Shown piece after piece: positions 3,088 through 20,499 of a DNA stretch of 20,525 nucleotides. The translations under genes and the position numbers were made by a program. The notes beneath the pieces are model-generated. The model was given only the letters and a program-made list of their open reading frames with translations. It was not told the origin of the DNA and searched no databases. Source of the DNA: a virus. Location: positions 1-20,525 of the IMG/VR virus record IMGVR_UViG_3300046010_012328; one strand, written 5' to 3'. The first letter of the stretch is position 1, and each line of letters begins with the position of its first letter.

Positions 3088-4008
3088 ATGAGCGCTTACA
3101 AGCAACTTTTAACTTCTGATATAATTGTTACTCCATTTGAGGTAAGCAAAGAGTTTACCTTTAATGGAGGCAGTTCTTTAGTTGATCCAAACGTAGGAAT
3201 AGATAGACTATTAGGCCAAAATATAGTTGGAACTTTATTTAATCCCTTATCTGATCCTACCACAGGAAATTTAGGAACCCAATATCGAAGATTAGTTTAT
3301 AGTTCAATCAAGGAACTCTACTATTCAAATTATTTAAGTTCTAGTTATGGAGATACAGTTAATCAACCAATTTTAATCCCAGGTAGAGATGAAGAAGGAA
3401 ATCGATTTGTAGGTTCTACAAATAATCCACAATTCGATAACTATCTTCAAACCACCCTTACCTATCCAAAATTTTTTCCAACTTCGTCTGGAGCATATGT
3501 GGGAGTTATTTCAATCCCTGCTCGTTTATTTGGAGATTATATTAAACCAAATACATTTAATTTTAAAGCAGGACCAAATTCTTTAGCAGATGATGGAGAA
3601 GGAAATATATTACTTAATGGAGACTCAATAATAGGAAATATATTTTATCCTCATGGGGTTATTACTATAACTTCTTCTTCATTTGGTGTTATAAATTCAT
3701 TTATATCAAATGCTGATGTAACTTGTTCATTTAACAGTTCATATAAAATTTATGAAACACAATATAAATGTACAATTAGAGAAAACGAATATAATTTAAC
3801 TTTAAATCCAAGTATTATATCAGGTAGCAATTCAGCTAGTTTAGGTATCCCATATGGATTTATAACTGAATCGTATTTTTCACCTTATATTACTACAGTT
3901 GGACTATATGATGAACAGCAAAATCTATTAGCAATAGGTAAATTAGCACAACCATTACCTTCATCCCCAACAACAGATACAACAATATTGATTAACATAG
4001 ATAGATAA
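3088..4008 (+). CDS. Virion structural protein, paralogous C-terminus to upstream gene
   Basis: A 306-residue protein of structural composition. The N-terminal part contains an ordered Tyr/Asn/Ser-rich segment (TQYRRLVYSSIKELYYSNYLSSS) typical of phage baseplate- or tail-type proteins. The C-terminal 75 residues match the module of the upstream protein (NPSIISGS … TTVGLYDEQQNLLAIGKLAQPL). Identity outside this module appears low, so the pair probably shares one assembly domain on different bodies. The stop TAA overlaps the next ATG (TAATG at 4006-4010), which links translation of this virion gene to the GIY-YIG gene behind it. Exact placement in the particle is not known. Confidence 0.7.
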   Translation: MSAYKQLLTSDIIVTPFEVSKEFTFNGGSSLVDPNVGIDRLLGQNIVGTLFNPLSDPTTGNLGTQYRRLVYSSIKELYYSNYLSSSYGDTVNQPILIPGRDEEGNRFVGSTNNPQFDNYLQTTLTYPKFFPTSSGAYVGVISIPARLFGDYIKPNTFNFKAGPNSLADDGEGNILLNGDSIIGNIFYPHGVITITSSSFGVINSFISNADVTCSFNSSYKIYETQYKCTIRENEYNLTLNPSIISGSNSASLGIPYGFITESYFSPYITTVGLYDEQQNLLAIGKLAQPLPSSPTTDTTILINIDR

Positions 4009-4448
4009 TGTGGTTATACGAAAATAAAGTTATAGATAAAATAGAAGATTTTAAAGAAGGAACATTTGGTTTTGTTTATAAAATTACTAACAACGAAACA
4101 GGTAAATTTTACATTGGTAAAAAACAATTGATTTCAAAAACTAATGTTAAATTAGGTAAGAAAGAAAAAGCAGCTCTTCCAACTCAACGTGGTAGAACTC
4201 CAACTAAAAAATTAGTAGTTAAAGAAGCAGATTGGCAAAACTATTGGGGCAGTAATAAACCATTACTCGAAGAAATAAAATCTTCAAATAAAGATAAATT
4301 TACAAGGGAAATACTAATAGTATGTTCCAGTAAAAAACTCCTAACATATTGGGAAGCAGCATATCAAATGAAACTAGATGTATTATTAATAGACAGCTAT
4401 AATGATACCATCTTAGGACATTATTATAAGAAAGACTTTTCAAACTAG
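4008..4448 (+). CDS. GIY-YIG family nuclease
   Basis: A 146-residue protein. Residues about 22-40 form a GIY-YIG core in the variant form FVYKITN…GKFYIGKK. A conserved second block follows around residues 74-106 (WQNYWGSNKPLLEEI … REIL), as in phage-encoded small GIY-YIG proteins. The C-terminal part contains a Glu in YWEAAYQ (residues about 110-117) that may be the metal-binding Glu. There is no NUMOD or other DNA-binding tail, unlike the second GIY-YIG protein at 17795. The start overlaps the upstream stop (TAATG). Such proteins can be Seg-like homing nucleases or resident repair/processing nucleases. The tight translational coupling, lack of a DNA-recognition tail and position at the head of a primase/nuclease cluster make a resident function at least as likely. 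Confidence 0.75.
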   Translation: MWLYENKVIDKIEDFKEGTFGFVYKITNNETGKFYIGKKQLISKTNVKLGKKEKAALPTQRGRTPTKKLVVKEADWQNYWGSNKPLLEEIKSSNKDKFTREILIVCSSKKLLTYWEAAYQMKLDVLLIDSYNDTILGHYYKKDFSN

Positions 4449-6241: not shown

Positions 6242-7039
6242 ATGATAAAACTTACTCAACTATTACAAGAAGCACTTTCCAATCCAAAAGCTATAATCAT
6301 GGCCGGAGGTGCATCCGTAGGTAAATCTACGGTACTCAAATCGATTGATCCTATAATTAAGGATTTTGACAATCTAAACGCAGATAAATATGTTGAAGAT
6401 AAAGATTCCCCAATGTATGGGAATTTAGCTGCTGCGGCTTCTCAAGTAAAAAAACAAGATTTACCAAATGCTATAAAAAATCAAAAGAATCTTGTTTACG
6501 ATACTACTGCAGCTAATTTATCTACTTTACAACCAATTCTAGATGAATTAAACAGTAATGGGTATGAAACCATGATGATTATGGTTTATGCCCATCCTAT
6601 TGTTTCATTTTTAAGAAACTTTAAGCGTGAACGTAAAGTACCAGCAGTTGGCGTTTTAGGAACATGGGCTAATGTATATAATTTATTAGACGAATATAAA
6701 AATATATTCGGTGATAAATTCGTATTAGTAAATTCTCCATCTGGACCTGAAGAACAAAAAGAAATAGCCAATTTTGAACAAGCATATCAAGATGGTAAAC
6801 TACCAGAATATTTTAATAATTTATTATCTACAGGAGAATTCGCTTCTACTTTTAAAAAAGACGATTCAACTTTGTCTCCTGAAGAAAAAGTAAAAAGAGA
6901 AAAACAAAGAGAAGCTACTCGTAAAACATTAGAAAAAAATATTGAAAAAATTGCTACCACATATGGGGATATTCAATCTAAATTAGACCCAATTGATAGT
7001 AAAGAGTTGCCTAATATTGTTAAAAACTTTGTTAAATGA
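6242..7039 (+). CDS. Zeta-toxin-like P-loop kinase
   Basis: A 265-residue protein from the ATG at 6242. An in-frame TTG at 6206 would add 12 residues, but the ATG is preferred because it places the N-terminus in register with the MxxxxQLLQE-type leader seen in neighbouring proteins. Walker A is GGASVGKST (G22-T30). It is followed by an NADKY segment with a likely catalytic Asp, and a lid-like Arg-rich stretch (FLRNFKRERK) with a conserved LGTWANVYNLLDEY after it. The fold is that of zeta toxin/polynucleotide-kinase-like enzymes, which phosphorylate small sugars, nucleotides or nucleic-acid ends. There is no epsilon-antitoxin gene beside it, so a classical toxin-antitoxin role is unlikely. The substrate is unknown. 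The C-terminal third is a charged helical region. Its TGA overlaps the next ATG (ATGA). Confidence 0.72.
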   Translation: MIKLTQLLQEALSNPKAIIMAGGASVGKSTVLKSIDPIIKDFDNLNADKYVEDKDSPMYGNLAAAASQVKKQDLPNAIKNQKNLVYDTTAANLSTLQPILDELNSNGYETMMIMVYAHPIVSFLRNFKRERKVPAVGVLGTWANVYNLLDEYKNIFGDKFVLVNSPSGPEEQKEIANFEQAYQDGKLPEYFNNLLSTGEFASTFKKDDSTLSPEEKVKREKQREATRKTLEKNIEKIATTYGDIQSKLDPIDSKELPNIVKNFVK

Positions 7040-8982
7040 ATTTTTTAGTTAGAGAACTTATACAACCCATATTAGAGGATTTTCAAATTGAAATGCCTCA
7101 ATCTAATGAGGTAGTAGCTTTGTTTGGTGGTGGTTTTAAACCACCCACAAAAGGACATTTTGATGTTGTTAAGCAAACACTCAAAGATTACCCAAATATA
7201 ACTGAATTCCAAATAGTAATAGGAGGAGGTACTCGAGATGGTATTACTCCCGAAATGTCTATGAAAATTTGGGAAACATATAAGCCATTACTTTCAGATA
7301 AAATAAAGTTAATTTCATCTGTATCTCCACTTACATATATTAAAGACTATATTAAGGAAAATCCAAATACAGAAATATATACAATAGTAGGTGCTAGAGA
7401 AGGTGATGAACAGGATGCTAAAGATTTTGAACAACGTAAAGCCTTATATAAAAAACATAGTGATAATGTTAATGTTATAAAATCAGAAAGTGAAAATGGC
7501 ATTAGTGGAACTAAAGCACGTAAAACATTATCTAATAATGATTTTGAAGCATTTATAAATTATTTACCCAGTGAACTAGATCCTGCTGCTCAACAACAAG
7601 TATGGAGTATTTTAGGTAAAGAAAAAATTGAAGAAATGTCTCAAGTGGCTATTCAATCAGTTGAAGATTTTGCTGATAAGGAATTAAATCCATTGGATAT
7701 AGAATTTACAAGCCATTTCTTTGATAGATTAGTAGATCCTAGGAATATTAAGCCTATTTCATCAGCTGAACTTATTGGATTTTTTAAGCGCTTAGCTAAA
7801 AAGAAAAAGCAATTATTTGATTTTCTTTCTAAATATAAAGAAATAGTAGCTACAGATAACCGTACAGATATTAATATACCATTAGTGAAGCAATCAAATA
7901 CTGCTATTGCTAAAACTATAATGCGTAAGAAAGATTTCAAAACACCTGATCCTAAAATTGAATTTAGTGAGAGTTTAAATGAAAGTGTAAATGATTCATT
8001 TGATGATGCTTTAAATTCATTAATTAGATATATGGTTGATCAAGGTATGGATATTCAACCATTACCCACGTTAAAAATCATAGATAATGATGTAGAAAAC
8101 GCTAATAACGTTTTAGGTAAAACGGCGTATTATGATCCAAATAATTGTTCTATAACGCTTTATACGCTGAATAGACATCCAAAAGATATATTACGCTCAT
8201 TTTCTCATGAAATGATTCATCGTATTCAAGATAACGAAGGTAGATTAACAAATATTAATACTACTAATACTAATGAAGATGGTGATTTACCTGAATTAGA
8301 AAGAGAAGCATATTTAAAAGGAAACATGACATTCAGAAATTGGGAAGATTCAATTAAAAATCAAAAATATATTAGAGAATATAAAGAGTATGCTTTAAAT
8401 GAATTATTTGAAAAAGATCTTCCTAATATTAAAAAGATATCACCTACTAAATATATTGTAGGTAATGAAGATGATATCGAAGCAGAATATTTTTTCAAAA
8501 TAGAATTCGATATTTTTGATGAAAACCCAACCCCAAATAATTGGTCAGTTAATTGGAGATTTACTGATAATAATCAAAATACATCACCTGAAGCTTGGAA
8601 ACAAGTAACTGCTACCTCATTTAAAGTATTAAATGATTTTATTCAAGACAAAAAACCAAAATCAATTACAATATCTGGCAATACTGAGGCTAAAACTAAC
8701 ATATACAAATCGGAATCATTTCTAAAAAAACTAGAAACATTATTTAATAATCAATATAAGATAGATAATAGTAATGAAGATAAAATAGTTATAAATCTAA
8801 TTGAAAATATTTCCCAATCCAATGTCCAAAAACGTATGGATACATTAAATGAGTCTTATGAACAAGCTTTAGATTATTGGCAAAATGGAGATTTAAATTC
8901 TAAAAGTAAAATAGAACGTTGGAATGCTATTAAACGTAAAATAGAAAGAGAAGTTTTACAAGAAATTTATCAAATTAAATGA
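7036..8982 (+). CDS. Nucleotidyltransferase–metallopeptidase multidomain fusion
   Basis: A 648-residue mosaic. Residues about 25-190 form a cytidylyltransferase/NMNAT-like nucleotidyltransferase with GGFKPPTKGH (33-41, the HxGH-type site) and ISGTKAR (156-162, the ISSTxxR-type site). Residues about 215-310 are an unknown domain (SHFFDRLVDPRN … INIPLV … AKTIMRK). Residues about 335-455 are a zinc metallopeptidase-like domain with HEMIH (391-395) and a downstream ELEREAYLKGN where E422 or E424 could be the third ligand. Residues about 475-600 form a further alpha/beta domain with FKVLNDFIQDKKPKSITISG, which I recognise loosely as a recurrent phage domain. The C-terminus is Lys/Glu-rich and helical. 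The N-terminus MNFLVRELIQPILED resembles the shared leader. No frameshift breaks it. Whether it remains one chain or is cut into separate enzymes is open. Confidence 0.75.
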   Translation: MNFLVRELIQPILEDFQIEMPQSNEVVALFGGGFKPPTKGHFDVVKQTLKDYPNITEFQIVIGGGTRDGITPEMSMKIWETYKPLLSDKIKLISSVSPLTYIKDYIKENPNTEIYTIVGAREGDEQDAKDFEQRKALYKKHSDNVNVIKSESENGISGTKARKTLSNNDFEAFINYLPSELDPAAQQQVWSILGKEKIEEMSQVAIQSVEDFADKELNPLDIEFTSHFFDRLVDPRNIKPISSAELIGFFKRLAKKKKQLFDFLSKYKEIVATDNRTDINIPLVKQSNTAIAKTIMRKKDFKTPDPKIEFSESLNESVNDSFDDALNSLIRYMVDQGMDIQPLPTLKIIDNDVENANNVLGKTAYYDPNNCSITLYTLNRHPKDILRSFSHEMIHRIQDNEGRLTNINTTNTNEDGDLPELEREAYLKGNMTFRNWEDSIKNQKYIREYKEYALNELFEKDLPNIKKISPTKYIVGNEDDIEAEYFFKIEFDIFDENPTPNNWSVNWRFTDNNQNTSPEAWKQVTATSFKVLNDFIQDKKPKSITISGNTEAKTNIYKSESFLKKLETLFNNQYKIDNSNEDKIVINLIENISQSNVQKRMDTLNESYEQALDYWQNGDLNSKSKIERWNAIKRKIEREVLQEIYQIK

Positions 8983-9515
8983 AATATAAATTAACAGATA
9001 TATATAAACAAATTAGAGAAGAGGAAACAGCAGCTCAAGTATCACAATATAAAATATTTTGTGATATGGATGGTGTACTATGTGATTTTGATAGACGATT
9101 TGAACAATTTGGAGGAATGTCTCCTAAAGAATACGAATCAAAATATGGTATTAAAGAATTTTGGGAACTTATAGATAAAAAAATAGGTGTTCAATTTTGG
9201 TCTAAAATGCCATGGATGTCGGATGGTAAACAACTTTGGGACTATATTAAAAAATACAATCCATCTTTACTTTCAGCTCCATCCAGAGAAGCATCTTCTC
9301 GCTATGGAAAACATTTATGGGTAAAAGAAAATATACCTGGAACTAAATTGATTTTAGCAAATAGAGAAAAGAAAAAAAATTATTCTGGAAAAAATCAAAT
9401 ACTTATCGACGACCGCCCTGATAATATTAATGAATGGAAGGCAGCAGGAGGTATAGGTATTTTACATACTTCAACATCAAACACAATTAACGAATTAAAG
9501 CAACTAGGATTATGA
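8979..9515 (+). CDS. HAD-family 5'(3')-deoxyribonucleotidase-like phosphatase
   Basis: A 178-residue HAD hydrolase. Motif I is DMDGVLCDF (D29 nucleophile, D31 acid/base), followed by the FW…W…M cap signature (FWELIDKK…FWSKMPWM) of the NT5C/5'(3')-nucleotidase branch. Motif II is the Ser in LLSAPS, motif III is a Lys in LANREKKKNYS, and motif IV is LIDDRPDN. It would dephosphorylate nucleoside monophosphates, so a role in phage nucleotide pools is likely. The first 20 residues before the HAD core (MKYKLTDIYKQIREEE) are an extension not needed for the fold and resemble the leader on other proteins here. The start is fixed by the ATGA overlap with the upstream gene; its own TGA overlaps the next start. 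Confidence 0.8.
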   Translation: MKYKLTDIYKQIREEETAAQVSQYKIFCDMDGVLCDFDRRFEQFGGMSPKEYESKYGIKEFWELIDKKIGVQFWSKMPWMSDGKQLWDYIKKYNPSLLSAPSREASSRYGKHLWVKENIPGTKLILANREKKKNYSGKNQILIDDRPDNINEWKAAGGIGILHTSTSNTINELKQLGL

Positions 9516-14106: not shown

Positions 14107-14814
14107 ATGGAACGTATTAAACAACTTATTCGAGAAGTACTTTCTACCCCACCCAAGAAGGAATCATGTAACTGCGGTTGCCATTCTTGTAAAAATGTAG
14201 GAAACAAAGGCCCAGTCTTAAACGAAAGCTTAAATGCTAAAATCGTAATGACTGAAAACATGCAATATCATGTTACTAATAAATTACCACTTACAGAAAA
14301 TACATTTCGTTACGGATCCCAAGCATTCTTAGATTTATGGGCTGAAGCTCGTTACTTATATTCTCGTAATGCTATTCACGTAAATGATGACGATAAAGAA
14401 ATTTTACTTGAAACTAATTTAGGTGAATATGGAATGTATGAAGGTAAAAAAGTAGCATTAGATATGCCTATGTTAGAAGATGATTCACTAGCGGCTGATG
14501 AAGAAGAAATAGCTGACGAACCTATATCTGAAACTGATAAAAAGAAAAATCCACCAATTGGAAAACCAAAACGTGGTGGCTCTAAAAAGTTTTATGTGTA
14601 TGTTAGAAATAAAGGTAAAATTAAAAAAGTTAGTTTTGGAGATACAACAGGACTATCAGCTAAAATAAACAATCCTCAAGCACGTAAAGCATTTGCTGCT
14701 CGTCATGATTGTAAAAATAAAACAGATAGAACAAAAGCATCATATTGGAGCTGTCGCTTACCTAGATATGCTAAATTATTAGGATTAAAATCATCATTTT
14801 CAGGATTTTGGTAA
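14107..14814 (+). CDS. Phage protein with Cys cluster and conserved C-terminal domain
   Basis: A 235-residue protein. Residues 1-12 (MERIKQLIREVL) are a clear copy of the shared leader. A Cys cluster follows at residues 21-28 (CNCGCHSC), possibly a metal site. Residues about 40-140 carry MYEGKKVALDMPMLE and an acidic linker. Residues about 159-235 form a compact basic domain (KKFYVYVRNKGKIKKVSFGD … FAARHDC … ASYWSCRLPRYAKLLGL). From memory, that domain recurs in proteins of T4-like marine phages, including head-associated ones. The likely role is virion-associated, possibly internal or at the capsid. The start is 11 bases after the upstream stop, and the sequence TATTTATTGGT between them is a degenerate form of the promoter-like element. 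Confidence 0.65.
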   Translation: MERIKQLIREVLSTPPKKESCNCGCHSCKNVGNKGPVLNESLNAKIVMTENMQYHVTNKLPLTENTFRYGSQAFLDLWAEARYLYSRNAIHVNDDDKEILLETNLGEYGMYEGKKVALDMPMLEDDSLAADEEEIADEPISETDKKKNPPIGKPKRGGSKKFYVYVRNKGKIKKVSFGDTTGLSAKINNPQARKAFAARHDCKNKTDRTKASYWSCRLPRYAKLLGLKSSFSGFW

Positions 14815-14815
14815 T

Positions 14816-15193
14816 ATGAAACTATTAGAACTTAGACAACTTATTCAAGAAGAACTACGTATAGTACGTGAGAGTTCTGCTTCAAAACTTTATAAAGTAG
14901 AAGGACTATTAGTAACAAATACTGATAAGAAAACCCAATCCCAAATAATTTCAGATATCAGATCAATCCCAGGCATCACAACAGTAGATGCTCAGGAATA
15001 TGTTCCTCGTTTACCTAAAAAAGGATACACATACGATAGACTAACTGTCAAGGTCGACCCATACCCATACATTAAAAAAGACGGTAAATTTGATATAGAA
15101 ACGATTAAACAAGTAATCGCAAGTATTGGTGGTATTAAAGGAATAGTTAAATTTAGAGTTGATAACCCTCAATTAATCAACATTGGGATATGA
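14816..15193 (+). CDS. Small ferredoxin-like-fold phage protein with leader peptide
   Basis: A 125-residue protein. The first 18 residues (KLLELRQLIQEELRIVR) are one of the clearest copies of the leader helix. Residues about 25-115 show a beta-alpha-beta-beta-alpha-beta pattern: YKVEGLLVTNT, KTQSQIISDIRSIPGITTVDAQE, YDRLTVKVDPYPY, DIETIKQVIASIGGIKGI, VKFRVD. This fits a ferredoxin-like (ACT/RRM-like) fold, which I recall from other small phage proteins of unknown function. There are no catalytic residues or Cys motifs. It is coupled to the next gene by an ATGA overlap. The fold call is from pattern reading only. Confidence 0.62.
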   Translation: MKLLELRQLIQEELRIVRESSASKLYKVEGLLVTNTDKKTQSQIISDIRSIPGITTVDAQEYVPRLPKKGYTYDRLTVKVDPYPYIKKDGKFDIETIKQVIASIGGIKGIVKFRVDNPQLINIGI

Positions 15194-16269
15194 TTAGCCT
15201 AATTGAATTACTAAAAAATATTCTTCTAGAAGAAAAAACAAAACGTGACAGATGTTTACGTATTGCTGATCGCAAATTTGATAAACCATCTGCTTATAAA
15301 TCAGGTGCTGTAGTTAGATGTCGTCAAGGTAGTATTTGGAAAAATTTAAAAGAAGAAGAACAATTAGATGAAAGTAAACAGGTAGGAACAATCTATCATT
15401 ATACTACCTTCAACTCCGGATTAAAAATACTACAATCTAATCAACTTAAATCTGGAGAAACAGCTGATAGTACAAAATCAAAGCCAGTATTTGCAATATC
15501 ATTCACTAGAGATAAAAGATTTCACGATAATCATGTAGTTGGATTTGAAGAATCTAGTTTTGGTAATAAACCACAATTACGATTTACAATTGATGGAAAT
15601 AAACTTAGTAATAGATATAGTGTACAACCCTATTCACAGCAAGGTGCTTTTAGTAAGGATAGAAAGGATTTTGAAGCAGAGGAAAGAGTAATTTCTGATA
15701 AAATGTTCACAATACCATTATCTGATTACTTGATTAGTATTGATTTATTAATAGAATATAAGAAACCCTCTAAGAACTCTGATTGGATGGATGAGATCAA
15801 TTATGAAGAGTATGCACCATTAAGAGCTAAAATTATTAAATTCGCACAAGATAAAAACATACCTATTAACTTAATAGTTAATAAAAATGGTGATCCATGG
15901 CCCGATAAAGCTAAAAAAACTATTATACAAAAAATACTTAATTGGTTTAGAATAAAAGAAGCTGACGACCCACAAGCAGGTAAAGCTGCTCCTTACGGCT
16001 CAGGCTATTCTAAATTAAAAGACATTATTAGAGAAATTATACAAGAGGACGAATCACTCCGCAAATGGTTCAAGCGTTCAGGTACACCTGGTAAAAAAGG
16101 TGGATGGGTAGATTGTAATGCACCAATTAGAAAAGATGGTGAAATAACAGGATATAAAGCGTGTGGTAGAGAAAAAGGAGAAAAACGCTCAAAATATCCT
16201 TCATGTCGTCCTACAGCCGCAAAATGTAAAACACCTGGAAAAGGCAAGAAATGGGGAAAAACAAAATGA
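15190..16269 (+). CDS. ADP-ribosyltransferase-like multidomain protein
   Basis: A 359-residue mosaic. Residues 1-14 (MISLIELLKNILLE) form a leader-like helix. Residues about 18-52 are a basic module (RDRCLRIADRKFDKPSAYKS … VVRCRQGSIWK). Residues about 66-200 resemble an ADP-ribosyltransferase-type fold: IYHYTT (68-73), ISFTRD (103-108), a beta strand LRFTIDGNKLS, and EAEERVI (162-168) carrying candidate catalytic Glu residues. Residues 273-287 (YSKLKDIIREIIQED) are an internal copy of the leader. Residues about 289-359 are a Lys/Arg/Cys-rich domain (LRKWFKRSG … GWVDCNAPI … YKACGREKGEKRSKYPSCRP), similar to DUF5872-type phage domains. The ART assignment is tentative. The arrangement resembles a precursor that could be cut between domains. 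Confidence 0.6.
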   Translation: MISLIELLKNILLEEKTKRDRCLRIADRKFDKPSAYKSGAVVRCRQGSIWKNLKEEEQLDESKQVGTIYHYTTFNSGLKILQSNQLKSGETADSTKSKPVFAISFTRDKRFHDNHVVGFEESSFGNKPQLRFTIDGNKLSNRYSVQPYSQQGAFSKDRKDFEAEERVISDKMFTIPLSDYLISIDLLIEYKKPSKNSDWMDEINYEEYAPLRAKIIKFAQDKNIPINLIVNKNGDPWPDKAKKTIIQKILNWFRIKEADDPQAGKAAPYGSGYSKLKDIIREIIQEDESLRKWFKRSGTPGKKGGWVDCNAPIRKDGEITGYKACGREKGEKRSKYPSCRPTAAKCKTPGKGKKWGKTK

Positions 16270-16276
16270 TAAATAT

Positions 16277-16714
16277 ATGGATAACTTTGATTTAAGAAAA
16301 TATTTAGCCGAAGGTAAATTATATGAAGCAGTTATGGCTTGTCCTTTACCTACTCAAAATCTAGAACTAAATACTAAAAATAGAGACTCAGCTATTAAAG
16401 CAGATTATATTAAATATGGTCCTTTAAATGTTGATGAACCTGGAGATTACTGGGATGAATTAGCAGAACATTGGGATACAACAGTTGAAGCAGCTCAACA
16501 ATCTTTATGTGGTAATTGTGCCGCATTTGATATTTCTCCTAGAATGGAAGATTGTATGCCTGGGTCGCTATCTGATGACGATGGTAAATTAGGATACTGT
16601 TGGATGCATAGTTTTAAATGCCATTCAGCTCGTACTTGCAGAACATGGGCTAAAGGTGGTCCTATAGTTAAAGATAGTATATCTTATGATTGGCAAGAAC
16701 GCAAAGGAGAATGA
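16277..16714 (+). CDS. Cys-rich phage protein with leader peptide
   Basis: A 145-residue protein from the ATG at 16277. A longer start at 16163 would overlap the upstream gene by over 100 bases and is rejected. The N-terminus MDNFDLRKYLAEGKLYEA closely resembles a T4-style capsid-targeting peptide with an LAE|G protease site. The central region is acidic and Trp-rich (YWDELAEHWDTT). The C-terminal third has six Cys: CGNC, EDC, GYC, FKC and RTC, with His and Trp between them (YCWMHSFKCHSARTCRTW). This pattern suggests a zinc or Fe-S site, or disulfides in a virion protein. I recall similar small proteins in marine phages but no function. The TGA overlaps the next ATG. Confidence 0.65.
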   Translation: MDNFDLRKYLAEGKLYEAVMACPLPTQNLELNTKNRDSAIKADYIKYGPLNVDEPGDYWDELAEHWDTTVEAAQQSLCGNCAAFDISPRMEDCMPGSLSDDDGKLGYCWMHSFKCHSARTCRTWAKGGPIVKDSISYDWQERKGE

Positions 16715-16968
16715 CCCCATATACCGACATAGAAGTTACAGATACTTATATTGTTCGTGAATTTAACGAAAATATAGATCCAATCGAATTAATGTGGCAT
16801 CGTGACAATGAAGACAGAACATTAGAAATAGTTGGTGAAACAAATTGGAGAATACAATTAGACAATAAATTGCCAATCTTACTAGAAAATCATATATTTA
16901 TACCAAAACACGAATGGCATCGTGTTATTAAAGGAACCGGAACATTAAAATTAAAAATATACAAATGA
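16711..16968 (+). CDS. Small cupin-like phage protein
   Basis: An 85-residue protein from the ATG at 16711, which overlaps the upstream TGA (ATGA). An upstream TTG at 16690 is possible but unnecessary. The sequence is beta-rich with a cupin-like order of features: LMWHRDNEDRTLEIV, then WRIQLDNKLPILL, then IFIPKHEWHRVIKGTG and LKLKIYK. Two His in WHR contexts (about residues 29 and 70) and Glu/Gln between them could bind a metal. It is much shorter than enzymatic cupins, about one barrel. I recall close relatives as conserved small proteins of T4-like marine phages. Role unknown. It ends in another ATGA overlap with the next gene. Confidence 0.68.
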   Translation: MTPYTDIEVTDTYIVREFNENIDPIELMWHRDNEDRTLEIVGETNWRIQLDNKLPILLENHIFIPKHEWHRVIKGTGTLKLKIYK

Positions 16969-17627
16969 AATCAACTGAATTAAGACAACTTATCCGCGAA
17001 TCAATTAATGAATATATTAGTGAAATTGACGATGCAGGAAATGTGGCTGCTTTAGAAGCCAAAATGAATAAAACTCAAGAAGCAATTGAACTTCGTGAGA
17101 AAAAAATAACTATGGATGGTTTAGATGAAGCTTATCATGATATGCTTGATAAAGGCAAAATGAAAGAACTTGGTAACGAAGTTAAAGCATTGAAAAAAAG
17201 TTTAGCTAAATATGAAAAACAATTAGATAAACTTAAATCAAAAGGTACTAAAACTGAAAAAGCTGAAGATAAAGAAATTGTTGATGAAGTTGAAATTGAT
17301 GAAACATTTCCTGAATCTGGATCTCAATTAGAAGAAAATGAAGGTAGTGATCTTAATTCAATGTCTGATTATGATCTAATGTCTTATGCCGAAGATGAAG
17401 GTATGGAAGACATGATTGTAAGAGATGGTGAAGGTGGATTAGCTAACCGTGAAGAAATCATCGCTGCACTTTCAGAAGGCAGTAATTTACCTTCTGCTCC
17501 TTCTCATGAAGAAACTGATGCTAATCAAGTTTATGAAATGTTAACCATGCAAAAAAGAGCAGGTATTATTACTGAATCTCAATATAAAGCTAAAGTAGAA
17601 GAAGCAAGAAAATCATCTAAAAAGTAA
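16965..17627 (+). CDS. Coiled-coil phage protein with tags at both ends
   Basis: A 220-residue, very charged protein. Residues 1-20 (MKSTELRQLIRESINEYISE) are the type example of the leader in this window. Residues about 25-90 form a Lys/Glu coiled coil (LEAKMNKTQEAIELREKKI … VKALKKSLAKYEKQLDKLKSK). Residues 95-165 are acidic and disordered, with a MSDYDLMSYAEDEGMEDMI stretch. The C-terminus M195-QKRAGIITESQYKAKVEEA is a full copy of the MQKLAGIIT motif. No enzyme motif is present. Tags at both ends and a coiled coil fit a scaffold-like or internal head protein. It is the last gene of a coupled run and is followed by a strong terminator. Confidence 0.65.
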   Translation: MKSTELRQLIRESINEYISEIDDAGNVAALEAKMNKTQEAIELREKKITMDGLDEAYHDMLDKGKMKELGNEVKALKKSLAKYEKQLDKLKSKGTKTEKAEDKEIVDEVEIDETFPESGSQLEENEGSDLNSMSDYDLMSYAEDEGMEDMIVRDGEGGLANREEIIAALSEGSNLPSAPSHEETDANQVYEMLTMQKRAGIITESQYKAKVEEARKSSKK

Positions 17628-17681
17628 CATATAGACCGATTCATAGCCGATCGCTCGAAAGAGACAAAACATCATGGATCT

Positions 17682-17713
17682 GTGGCCCATTTTTCGAAAG
17701 AAAGGTGGGCCAC
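17682..17713 (+). terminator. Strong rho-independent terminator with GAAA tetraloop
   Basis: The arm GTGGCCCATTTTTC (17682-17695) pairs over all 14 positions (two G·T wobbles) with GAAAGGTGGGCCAC (17700-17713), capped by a GAAA tetraloop (17696-17699). TTTAATT follows. This is the most stable hairpin I found in the window. It ends the long operon that finishes with the coiled-coil protein. Confidence 0.85.
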
Positions 17714-17775
17714 TTTAATTGGGATTTCAAAATAAAAAATTTTATATTAGGGGGATGGTCTGATGGAAGTTTACC

Positions 17776-17790
17776 ATATGTATAATAAAA
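17776..17790 (+). promoter_or_regulatory. Putative promoter for homing endonuclease
   Basis: ATATGTATAATAAAA differs by one base from the exact copies at 1366 and 11366. It lies just after a strong terminator and 4 bases before the ATG at 17795, so it gives the endonuclease gene its own transcription start with an extremely short leader. Confidence 0.5.
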
Positions 17791-17794
17791 CAAC

Positions 17795-18400
17795 ATGACT
17801 AAAATTTACATATTAGAAAGAAATGGAGTTCCGTTTTATGTAGGTAAAACATTACAAGAAATAAAAGAACGCTTTCATACTCATGGTATTAAAAAAGAAA
17901 ATAGTGAAATAATTGAAATTGATTGCGTTGATGATAAAGAATGGAGATTTTGGGAATCATGGTATATTGAATTATTTAAAGTATGGGGATTTGGATTAGA
18001 AAATAAGAATAGTGGAGGAGGAGGAAGAGGACCAGGATGGGTATCATTGCCGGAGCGTGGAATAAAAATAAGTAAAACATTAAAAGAAAGAAATCATTCA
18101 CAATATTATACAGACGAAGTAAGACAAAAAATGTCTATTCCTCAAAAGGGAAAATCAAAACCATTTACTAAAGAACATAAAGAAAATATTTCAAAAGCCA
18201 ATTTAGAATCAAAAGGTAAAGTAGTAGAATGTTATGGTTTAGATGGGAAATTTATAAAAGAGTTTAATTGCTTAAGAGAAGCCAAAATTTGGATTACAGA
18301 AGAAAAATCTATATATTCACCTAATATTGATAAACAAATAAAAGACTGCTGTAATGGTCGTCAAAAAACATGTCATGGATACAAATTTAAATATAAATAA
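17795..18400 (+). CDS. GIY-YIG homing endonuclease with NUMOD and IENR1-like tail
   Basis: A 201-residue free-standing homing endonuclease. The GIY-YIG core is in the N-terminus (KIYILERNGVPFYVGKT, residues 3-19), with R26 in the EIKERFHTHG helix and a candidate metal-binding Glu in FWESWYIELF. Residues about 104-135 match NUMOD3-type DNA-binding motifs (DEVRQKMSIPQKGKSKPFT … EHKENISKA). Residues about 143-201 look like an IENR1/NUMOD1 module (VVECYGLDGKFIKEF … IKDCCNGRQKTCHGYKFKYK). These enzymes cut a specific site in a relative lacking the gene and spread by repair. The gene is flanked upstream by a terminator and its own promoter-like element and downstream by a 4-base gap to the FAD gene. 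This fits an inserted mobile gene. Confidence 0.85.
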   Translation: MTKIYILERNGVPFYVGKTLQEIKERFHTHGIKKENSEIIEIDCVDDKEWRFWESWYIELFKVWGFGLENKNSGGGGRGPGWVSLPERGIKISKTLKERNHSQYYTDEVRQKMSIPQKGKSKPFTKEHKENISKANLESKGKVVECYGLDGKFIKEFNCLREAKIWITEEKSIYSPNIDKQIKDCCNGRQKTCHGYKFKYK

Positions 18401-19830: not shown

Positions 19831-20499
19831 ATGGAATTAAGAAAATACATCCGCGAAATGGTTGAGGCTGAGCTTGATGAAATGGCTCGTATCTCAACAA
19901 ACATCAAAATTGGTGATCCTGAAAAAGCAGCTATCGCAAAAGAATTATATGCTGGAACTTGGTACGGCGATATGATTGACTATGTTGAAGAATCAGGAGC
20001 TACTGGCATTCCCCAACCTGAACTAGCAAGAATGTTAGGAAAATCAGGACAACAGGCTATCAATCCTAAAGTTAGGGATTTTCTTGAATCAAACATTTTC
20101 ACTAAAGGTGAATTGTCTATTCCTAAACAGGAAAAACCAGAAGCTAGTGGTATTAAAGGTCGTCCAACTTCCGAAAAAACATTAATGGCTAAGGACGTTA
20201 ATTCTAAGATGGAAGCAGATGGTAACTACGAACCAACAGAAGATGAATTAGCAATGTTAGGAGCTGAGTTTGTTGAAAAACTTAGAGCACGTGTTAAAGG
20301 TACTTTAAGACGCGGTCGTCCTGCAATGCCTTCTAAAGCAAAAGATGGTATGATGGCAGCTATGAAAAATATGGCTAATGCTGAAGATACAGATATGGAT
20401 GGAGATGTTGATGACGAGGATTTAGATGATATTGCTGAATCAACTTCAATTAATGAATCATTTACTCGCATGCAAAAATTAGCAGGTATTATTAAGTAA
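19831..20499 (+). CDS. Putative DNA-binding phage protein with leader, AT-hook cores and EF-hand-like loop
   Basis: A 222-residue protein. Residues 1-12 (MELRKYIREMVE) are the leader. Residues about 26-88 form a helical domain that could be winged-helix-like (AAIAKELYAGTWYGDMIDYV … IPQPELARMLGKSGQQAINP). Two GRP cores in basic or flexible surroundings, KGRP (109-112) and RRGRP (160-164), are AT-hook-like. Residues 186-197 (DTDMDGDVDDED) have acidic residues at positions 1, 3, 5 and 12 of a calcium-binding loop as in EF-hands or dockerins. The C-terminus FTRMQKLAGIIK (211-222) is the second shared motif. The combination suggests a DNA-associated, possibly head-internal protein. DNA and calcium binding are inferences. 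Confidence 0.65.
   Translation: MELRKYIREMVEAELDEMARISTNIKIGDPEKAAIAKELYAGTWYGDMIDYVEESGATGIPQPELARMLGKSGQQAINPKVRDFLESNIFTKGELSIPKQEKPEASGIKGRPTSEKTLMAKDVNSKMEADGNYEPTEDELAMLGAEFVEKLRARVKGTLRRGRPAMPSKAKDGMMAAMKNMANAEDTDMDGDVDDEDLDDIAESTSINESFTRMQKLAGIIK

Follow-up and report, generated by a model that had tools for sequence, protein, structure and literature searches.

Locus and phage affiliation

The window, i.e. the whole stretch of DNA analysed (20,525 nucleotides; IMG/VR virus record IMGVR_UViG_3300046010_012328), contains on its plus strand an ORF of 648 amino acids (7036–8982), termed P0001, the start of which overlaps the stop codon of the upstream gene in a shared ATGA. The encoded protein harbours the motifs GGFKPPTKGH (aa 32–41), ISGTKAR (aa 156–162), HEMIH (aa 391–395) and ELEREAY (aa 420–426). 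A previous sequence-only reading of the window had described this ORF as a four-part fusion. The ORF proved to be real: its motifs are conserved in homologues and not due to chance, and complete as well as partial homologues were detected on many independent viral contigs. The division into four parts was likewise correct; overlooked were an N-terminal tag (aa 1–14) and [LI]xE sites at the domain junctions.

Tail-type genes as well as genes for a DnaG-like primase and an exonuclease-like protein are located upstream of P0001. The adjoining upstream gene (6242–7039, plus strand) encodes a zeta-toxin-type P-loop kinase (Zeta_toxin, E 2e-12) with the N-terminal tag MIKLTQLLQE (6242–6271), and the downstream gene (8979–9515, plus strand) an NT5C-type 5'-nucleotidase (phrog_2643, E 7e-30; NT5C, E 4e-6) with the tag MKYKLTDIYKQIRE, which by eye ends in I-R-E. 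Two further ORFs (4008–4448 and 17795–18400) resemble GIY-YIG proteins by eye only and probably encode homing-type endonucleases.

By gene content the phage is a member of the T4 superfamily, since near relatives carry T4 gp23 (major capsid protein) and gp21 (prohead protease). The latter is encoded in 7 of 8 relatives and gp23 in 4 of 5, and both are present on the contig coding for an 81%-identical P0001 protein; the window itself lacks the length to accommodate gp21. The same gene order (primase, exonuclease, hypothetical protein, nucleotidyltransferase fusion, NT5C nucleotidase) is displayed by the isolate Flavobacterium phage immuto (host LMO8), whose P0001 homologue is annotated as NMN adenylyltransferase. 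Since relatives also occur in Flavobacteriales and Winogradskyella genome bins, besides the syntenic immuto, the host of the P0001 phage probably belongs to the Flavobacteriia.

Domain composition of P0001

The first enzymatic domain (aa 15–200; 7078–7635, plus strand) carries GGFKPPTKGH and ISGTKAR, is covered by an AlphaFold2 model of aa 1–318, computed from an alignment with 13 homologues (pLDDT 85), and ends at the predicted site I-E-E200. Adenylyltransferases fill the VIA and Foldseek match lists for this model, with aa 25–198 matching phosphopantetheine (CoaD/PPAT) and nicotinate mononucleotide (NadD) adenylyltransferases at Z up to 17.5 (CoaD/PPAT: Z 17, rmsd 2.3–2.6 Å, about 150 residues aligned). 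Residues G32, F34, P36, P37, G40, H41 and R162 are invariant in the 13 homologues, 8 of which yield the Pfam match CTP_transf_like. The domain thus combines the Rossmann-type fold and the conserved (H/T)xGH and ISxTxxR motifs of the HxGH nucleotidylyl/adenylyltransferases, as does CoaD or NadD, whereas it is only about 15% identical to these enzymes and embedded in a phage polyprotein. The nucleotidyltransferase proposed from GGFKPPTKGH and ISGTKAR is hence borne out by fold and invariant motif residues; the cytidylyltransferase option considered along with it is not indicated, the nearest folds being the CoaD/NadD adenylyltransferases. If injected, the adenylyltransferase could play a role in NAD or CoA metabolism, and putatively it could counter NAD-depleting defences.

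The second domain (aa 201–316, EFTSHFFDR...IMRKKDFKT; 7636–7983, plus strand), ending at the predicted site L-N-E316, had been considered unknown. It is indeed a separate domain but not a wholly unknown one, as aa 200–310 weakly match T4 RegB (REGB_T4, E 4e-4; 20.8 bits, below the Pfam cut-off of 27 bits), besides phrog_23027 (E 5e-11). RegB-like domains of this kind were detected in dozens of phages, standalone or within other fusions. The likeness to the T4 endoribonuclease centres on H48-x-L-x-R, with which H227 (H227-F-F-D-R) would align in the weak alignment; the domain differs from RegB in its C-terminal half (KTIMRKKDFK) and apparently in the second catalytic histidine, no His being present at the H68 position in 12 RegB-like sequences, again as judged from a weak alignment. 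An assignment to RegB proper was dropped, the profile comparison being too weak (hhalign probability 1%) and the Pfam cut-off missed; a sequence search for a solved structure of this domain retrieved none. The RegB-like domain could cleave mRNA in the host.

The third domain (aa 317–459, including a linker; 7984–8412, plus strand) ends at the predicted sites L-N-E456 and L-F-E459 and represents a putative zincin metallopeptidase. Its HEMIH motif (8206–8220) is followed by E422 and E424 (8299–8307); the HExxH residues, Q398 and both glutamates are invariant in 8 homologues, with identities down to 55% over the peptidase region. Fold comparison (AlphaFold2 and VIA-align) of aa ~317–440 retrieved Wss1, IrrE/PprI and other zincins at Z 7–8, and since no PDB match was obtained for this region by sequence, the assignment rests on motif and fold. 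The zincin-like peptidase deduced earlier from HEMIH and the downstream Glu was to be abandoned if the model lacked zincin helix geometry or if close homologues had lost the catalytic residues. In the model HEMIH lies within one helix and the glutamate on the following one, as in zincins, and HEMIH and ExEA are retained in all 8 homologues. The domain could attack host proteins or complete processing. In four relatives (L009, L013, L020 and L119), the chain contains, further towards its end, another zincin motif that differs from the first (HEITH..., HEIEHLTQ..., HELEHLTQ...).

The C-terminal domain (aa 460–648; 8413–8982 including the stop codon, plus strand) weakly matches DUF6934 (E 9e-5, as good as 4e-7 in homologues). 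Its model, of modest pLDDT, resembles GNAT folds at Z ~7, tied with the DNase I-like domain of RNase E, so that the GNAT-like reading is a weak one. Standalone versions with their own tag are encoded in L016, L018 and L222.

Mosaic architecture among relatives

The four domains are combined into 13 architectures across relatives and occur separately or in other order, a point that the sequence-only reading had put up for checking. Nucleotidyltransferase–peptidase is the commonest order among loci that were partly retrieved with the peptidase as query; the RegB-like and C-terminal domains are variably present, RegB following the peptidase in some phages. With at least two different enzymatic domains in mosaic arrangement and a zincin-like metallopeptidase domain, the P0001 group displays two features of polyvalent proteins. 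In L130, L145, L153 and L119, a Pol-beta-like minimal nucleotidyltransferase occupies the N-terminal ~300 aa (MSG..GG.RI) and is fused before the adenylyltransferase; it shows a GS...DxD pattern by eye, and the tag and [LI]xE sites are retained between both nucleotidyltransferases.

N-terminal tags

The predicted capsid-targeting propeptide of P0001 (aa 1–14, MNFLVRELIQPILE; 7036–7077, plus strand) would be removed by a cut after E14 (I-L-E). It is modelled as a helix (aa 3–15) preceding the enzyme and deviates from the common form in being four residues longer than that of T4 (L4, E14) and in having Pro in place of a hydrophobic residue. Among 39 redundancy-reduced N-termini of the P0001 family, 34 carry [LI]xE at residues 9–17 (shuffled: 12.5, maximum 23). 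The tag is modular and absent from several homologues with the same enzymes (L013, L020, L024 and L227).

Interior windows and shuffled N-termini served as controls for a general tag rule (hydrophobic-x-x-hydrophobic-[LIF]-x-E, the Glu lying at residue 8–15). Matches are over-represented at N-termini in each of the six records tested, e.g., in the window (7 of 25 ORFs; shuffled mean 1.0, maximum 4), in G001 (19 of 124; shuffled 2.2, maximum 6) and in G003 (12 of 104; shuffled 1.7, maximum 7), with 0–4 matches in interior windows. Further tagged ORFs of the window, all on the plus strand, are located at 14107–14814 (MERIKQLIRE), 14816–15193 (MKLLELRQLIQE), 15190–16269 (MISLIELLKNILLE), 16277–16714 (MDNFDLRKYLAE), 16965–17627 (MKSTELRQLIRE; additionally with a C-terminal MQKRAGIITE motif found by motif scan) and 19831–20499 (MELRKYIRE). 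For two genes the longest-ORF starts (6206 versus 6242 and 16163 versus 16277) were judged too far upstream because of the tag position, the tagged ATG being the likely start. Hydrophobic residues at 4 and 7, [LIF] at 8 and E10 are kept in 37 of 37 distinct kinases adjoining P0001-type genes, a number that reflects conservation and not 37 events, because the kinases are homologous.

In phage T4, the first ten residues of the internal protein IPIII suffice for capsid targeting; positions 4 and 7 of this capsid-targeting sequence serve targeting and positions 8 and 10 processing, so that both functions are separable, and gp21 cleaves after L/I-x-E (PMC9026906). It is precisely these four positions that the neighbour kinases retain. 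The rule and a profile, both built from the marine phages without T4, were applied to 241 T4 ORFs. The strict rule selected three of them (ipII, ipIII and gp24), all gp21 substrates, and the profile placed gp2, ipII, ipIII, gp22, gp24, inh and Alt among the top 11, while ipI was missed. Of these, gp22, gp24, the internal proteins and Alt are named as gp21-processed in the T4 record and a review (PMC9026906).

A second recurrent peptide, RMQ[KQ]LAG[IL]I.E, lies close to the N- or the C-terminal end of unrelated ORFs and usually ends in [LI]xE (window 17549–17610 and 20470–20496; G003 40593 and 44397; G002 13456; L119 11675); one such ORF sits between the gp21 and gp22 genes. With 7 occurrences in the window against an expectation of 7.7, the T4 late promoter TATAAATA shows no surplus there. 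In G006 (the L037 record) it is strongly biased to the coding strand (21 versus 3), and one copy lies 43 bases ahead of a tagged gene at 94454, with a tagged nucleotidyltransferase–RegB gene downstream; this placement is suggestive only.

Sites at domain junctions

The junctions of P0001 carry I-E-E200, L-N-E316, L-N-E456 and L-F-E459. Across the family, [LI]xE was found in 49 of 57 redundancy-reduced inter-domain linkers (shuffled mean 18.6, maximum 29 in 1000), counts that are not independent because the linkers belong to related proteins, and that concern a short motif. For 49% of linker Glu the residue at -2 is L or I, versus 11% inside domains and a proteome baseline of 12–22%. At the other offsets from -6 to +6 of linker Glu, L/I amounts to 6–21%; helix periodicity is an unlikely cause, because the peak is confined to -2. 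A few [LI]xE motifs lie within the P0001 domains as well, and outside linkers tagged proteins as a class are not enriched in internal [LI]xE.

Where a domain stands alone, the end of its tag coincides with the boundary marked by the linker site in the fused form. This applies to the RegB-like domain (standalone MKSFKYLRE/EIS, fused DYLKE/EIT; the slash marks the boundary), the peptidase (MIKLSSLLSE/IYAEPSKF and TPIEE/MYAEPSKF) and the C-terminal domain (RILE/MFDKPLPNI and ELFE/KDLPNI), LFEKDLP being retained at the peptidase/C-domain junction of fused homologues. Fused chains may retain an entire tag, as in S[LLE]ANALVRELLLPL[LFE]QASNP and in proteins fused behind the Pol-beta-like nucleotidyltransferase, and a neighbouring protein of immuto begins with M-GGNVF where tagged relatives have ...NE/GGNVF.

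Predicted packaging and processing

Taken from these sequence patterns, P0001 is probably an effector polyprotein that a T4-superfamily phage packages in its head, cuts with the head protease and injects. The N-terminal peptide (aa 1–14) would dock the protein onto the prohead scaffold, just as T4 internal proteins are docked by their capsid-targeting sequence, and a gp21-type prohead protease would cleave after [L/I]-x-E, so that the tag is lost at E14 and the domains come apart at E200, E316 and E456/E459. The freed adenylyltransferase, RegB-like, zincin and DUF6934/GNAT-like domains would be retained in the head and then pass into the host along with the DNA, together with tagged neighbours (zeta-type kinase, 5'-nucleotidase and others), and may act on host nucleotide metabolism, RNA, proteins or defences ahead of any phage gene expression. 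The repeated LLE/ILE in the gp23 pro-region of these phages agrees with such a cleavage specificity. In addition, a conserved protein of 284–286 aa from the head cluster (M[LK]IKHSKFKNTG...; G002 17059–17919, G003 48792–49646, G004 88327–89181) contains [LI]xE strongly in excess (13 of 22 Glu, 14 of 24 and 17 of 28, respectively) and may belong to the scaffold core and be degraded by gp21. A search of the open-access literature retrieved neither direct virion proteomics for phiM12, immuto or Melnitz nor virion proteomics or expression data for any relative.

The sequence-only reading had raised both joint delivery of the enzymes and a self-processing precursor. The former agrees with the T4-type capsid-targeting tag and with the gp21-type protease encoded in relatives; of the latter, the precursor stands, while the likely cutter would be the head protease, the consensus of which is present at the junctions, rather than or besides the zincin. 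That the protein is packaged and injected but its domains are freed by the built-in zincin has a small yet appreciable chance. Such self-cleavage was proposed for zincin-containing phage polyvalent proteins by Iyer et al. 2017 (PMC5512222), and the zincin is the most constant partner, albeit among loci partly fetched by the peptidase query; however, the junction signature is of the gp21 type, is likewise present in the peptidase-less nucleotidyltransferase–RegB proteins L042 and L062, and recurs in the N-terminal tags of unrelated neighbours.

An ordinary, unpackaged intracellular multidomain enzyme, e.g., of NAD or nucleotide metabolism, with tags and sites as fusion relics or coincidence, appears unlikely. 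The nucleotide enzymes encoded by neighbouring genes, the annotation of the immuto homologue and the lack of the tag in some homologues would fit, but numerous unrelated ORFs have the tag in common, which carries over to T4 head proteins, and the -2 enrichment in linkers lies far above the proteome baseline. Very improbable is an uncut multienzyme docked by its tag to the scaffold or another virion part, which the separability of targeting and processing positions in T4 would allow, as [LI]xE is conserved exactly at domain borders and depleted within domains.

Relation to known systems and implications

A head-packaged, protease-cut P0001, as the best reading, extends both T4 internal proteins and polyvalent proteins. 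It shares with IPI, IPII, IPIII and Alt an N-terminal peptide that ends in [LI]xE and the occurrence in phages with a gp21-type protease; hydrophobic residues at 4 and 7, [LI] at 8 and E10, as in the T4 form, are seen in the tags of the neighbour kinases ([LIF] at 8), P0001 itself having L4 and a longer tag with E14; the rule derived from the marine tags, moreover, picks IPII and IPIII in T4. In contrast to the T4 proteins, which are small and cut N-terminally (Alt also C-terminally), the P0001 type comprises three or four enzyme domains per chain with sites between them, and whereas packaging is demonstrated for T4 internal proteins, it is predicted for the P0001 group. Polyvalent proteins (Iyer et al. 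2017, PMC5512222) are likewise multidomain proteins of the injected type with zincin, RegB/BECR-like and nucleotidyltransferase-type parts in mosaic order, to which P0001 adds a HIGH-type adenylyltransferase core, a T4-type targeting tag and prohead-protease sites at the junctions. By analogy, the best precedent for a possible role against defences is the inhibition of type IV restriction enzymes by injected T4 internal proteins (PMC12373910). T-even internal proteins were earlier found by their signal sequence (Repoila et al. 1994, as cited in PMC12373910); no description of marine T4-like phages with tagged multidomain proteins turned up in the open-access literature.

On balance we lean towards a general scheme in which marine T4-like phages of Bacteroidota, and probably those of other hosts, pack tagged enzymes and polyproteins that are released by the head-maturation protease, the capsid protease doubling as polyprotein processor for a swappable injected arsenal. 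If true, genome text alone would suffice for a simple sequence rule to flag numerous candidate injected proteins, mostly labelled "hypothetical" at present, in the abundant uncultured phages of the sea. Head-maturation proteases would gain a second role in cleaving effector polyproteins, and the free reshuffling of domains in these fusions would be explained.
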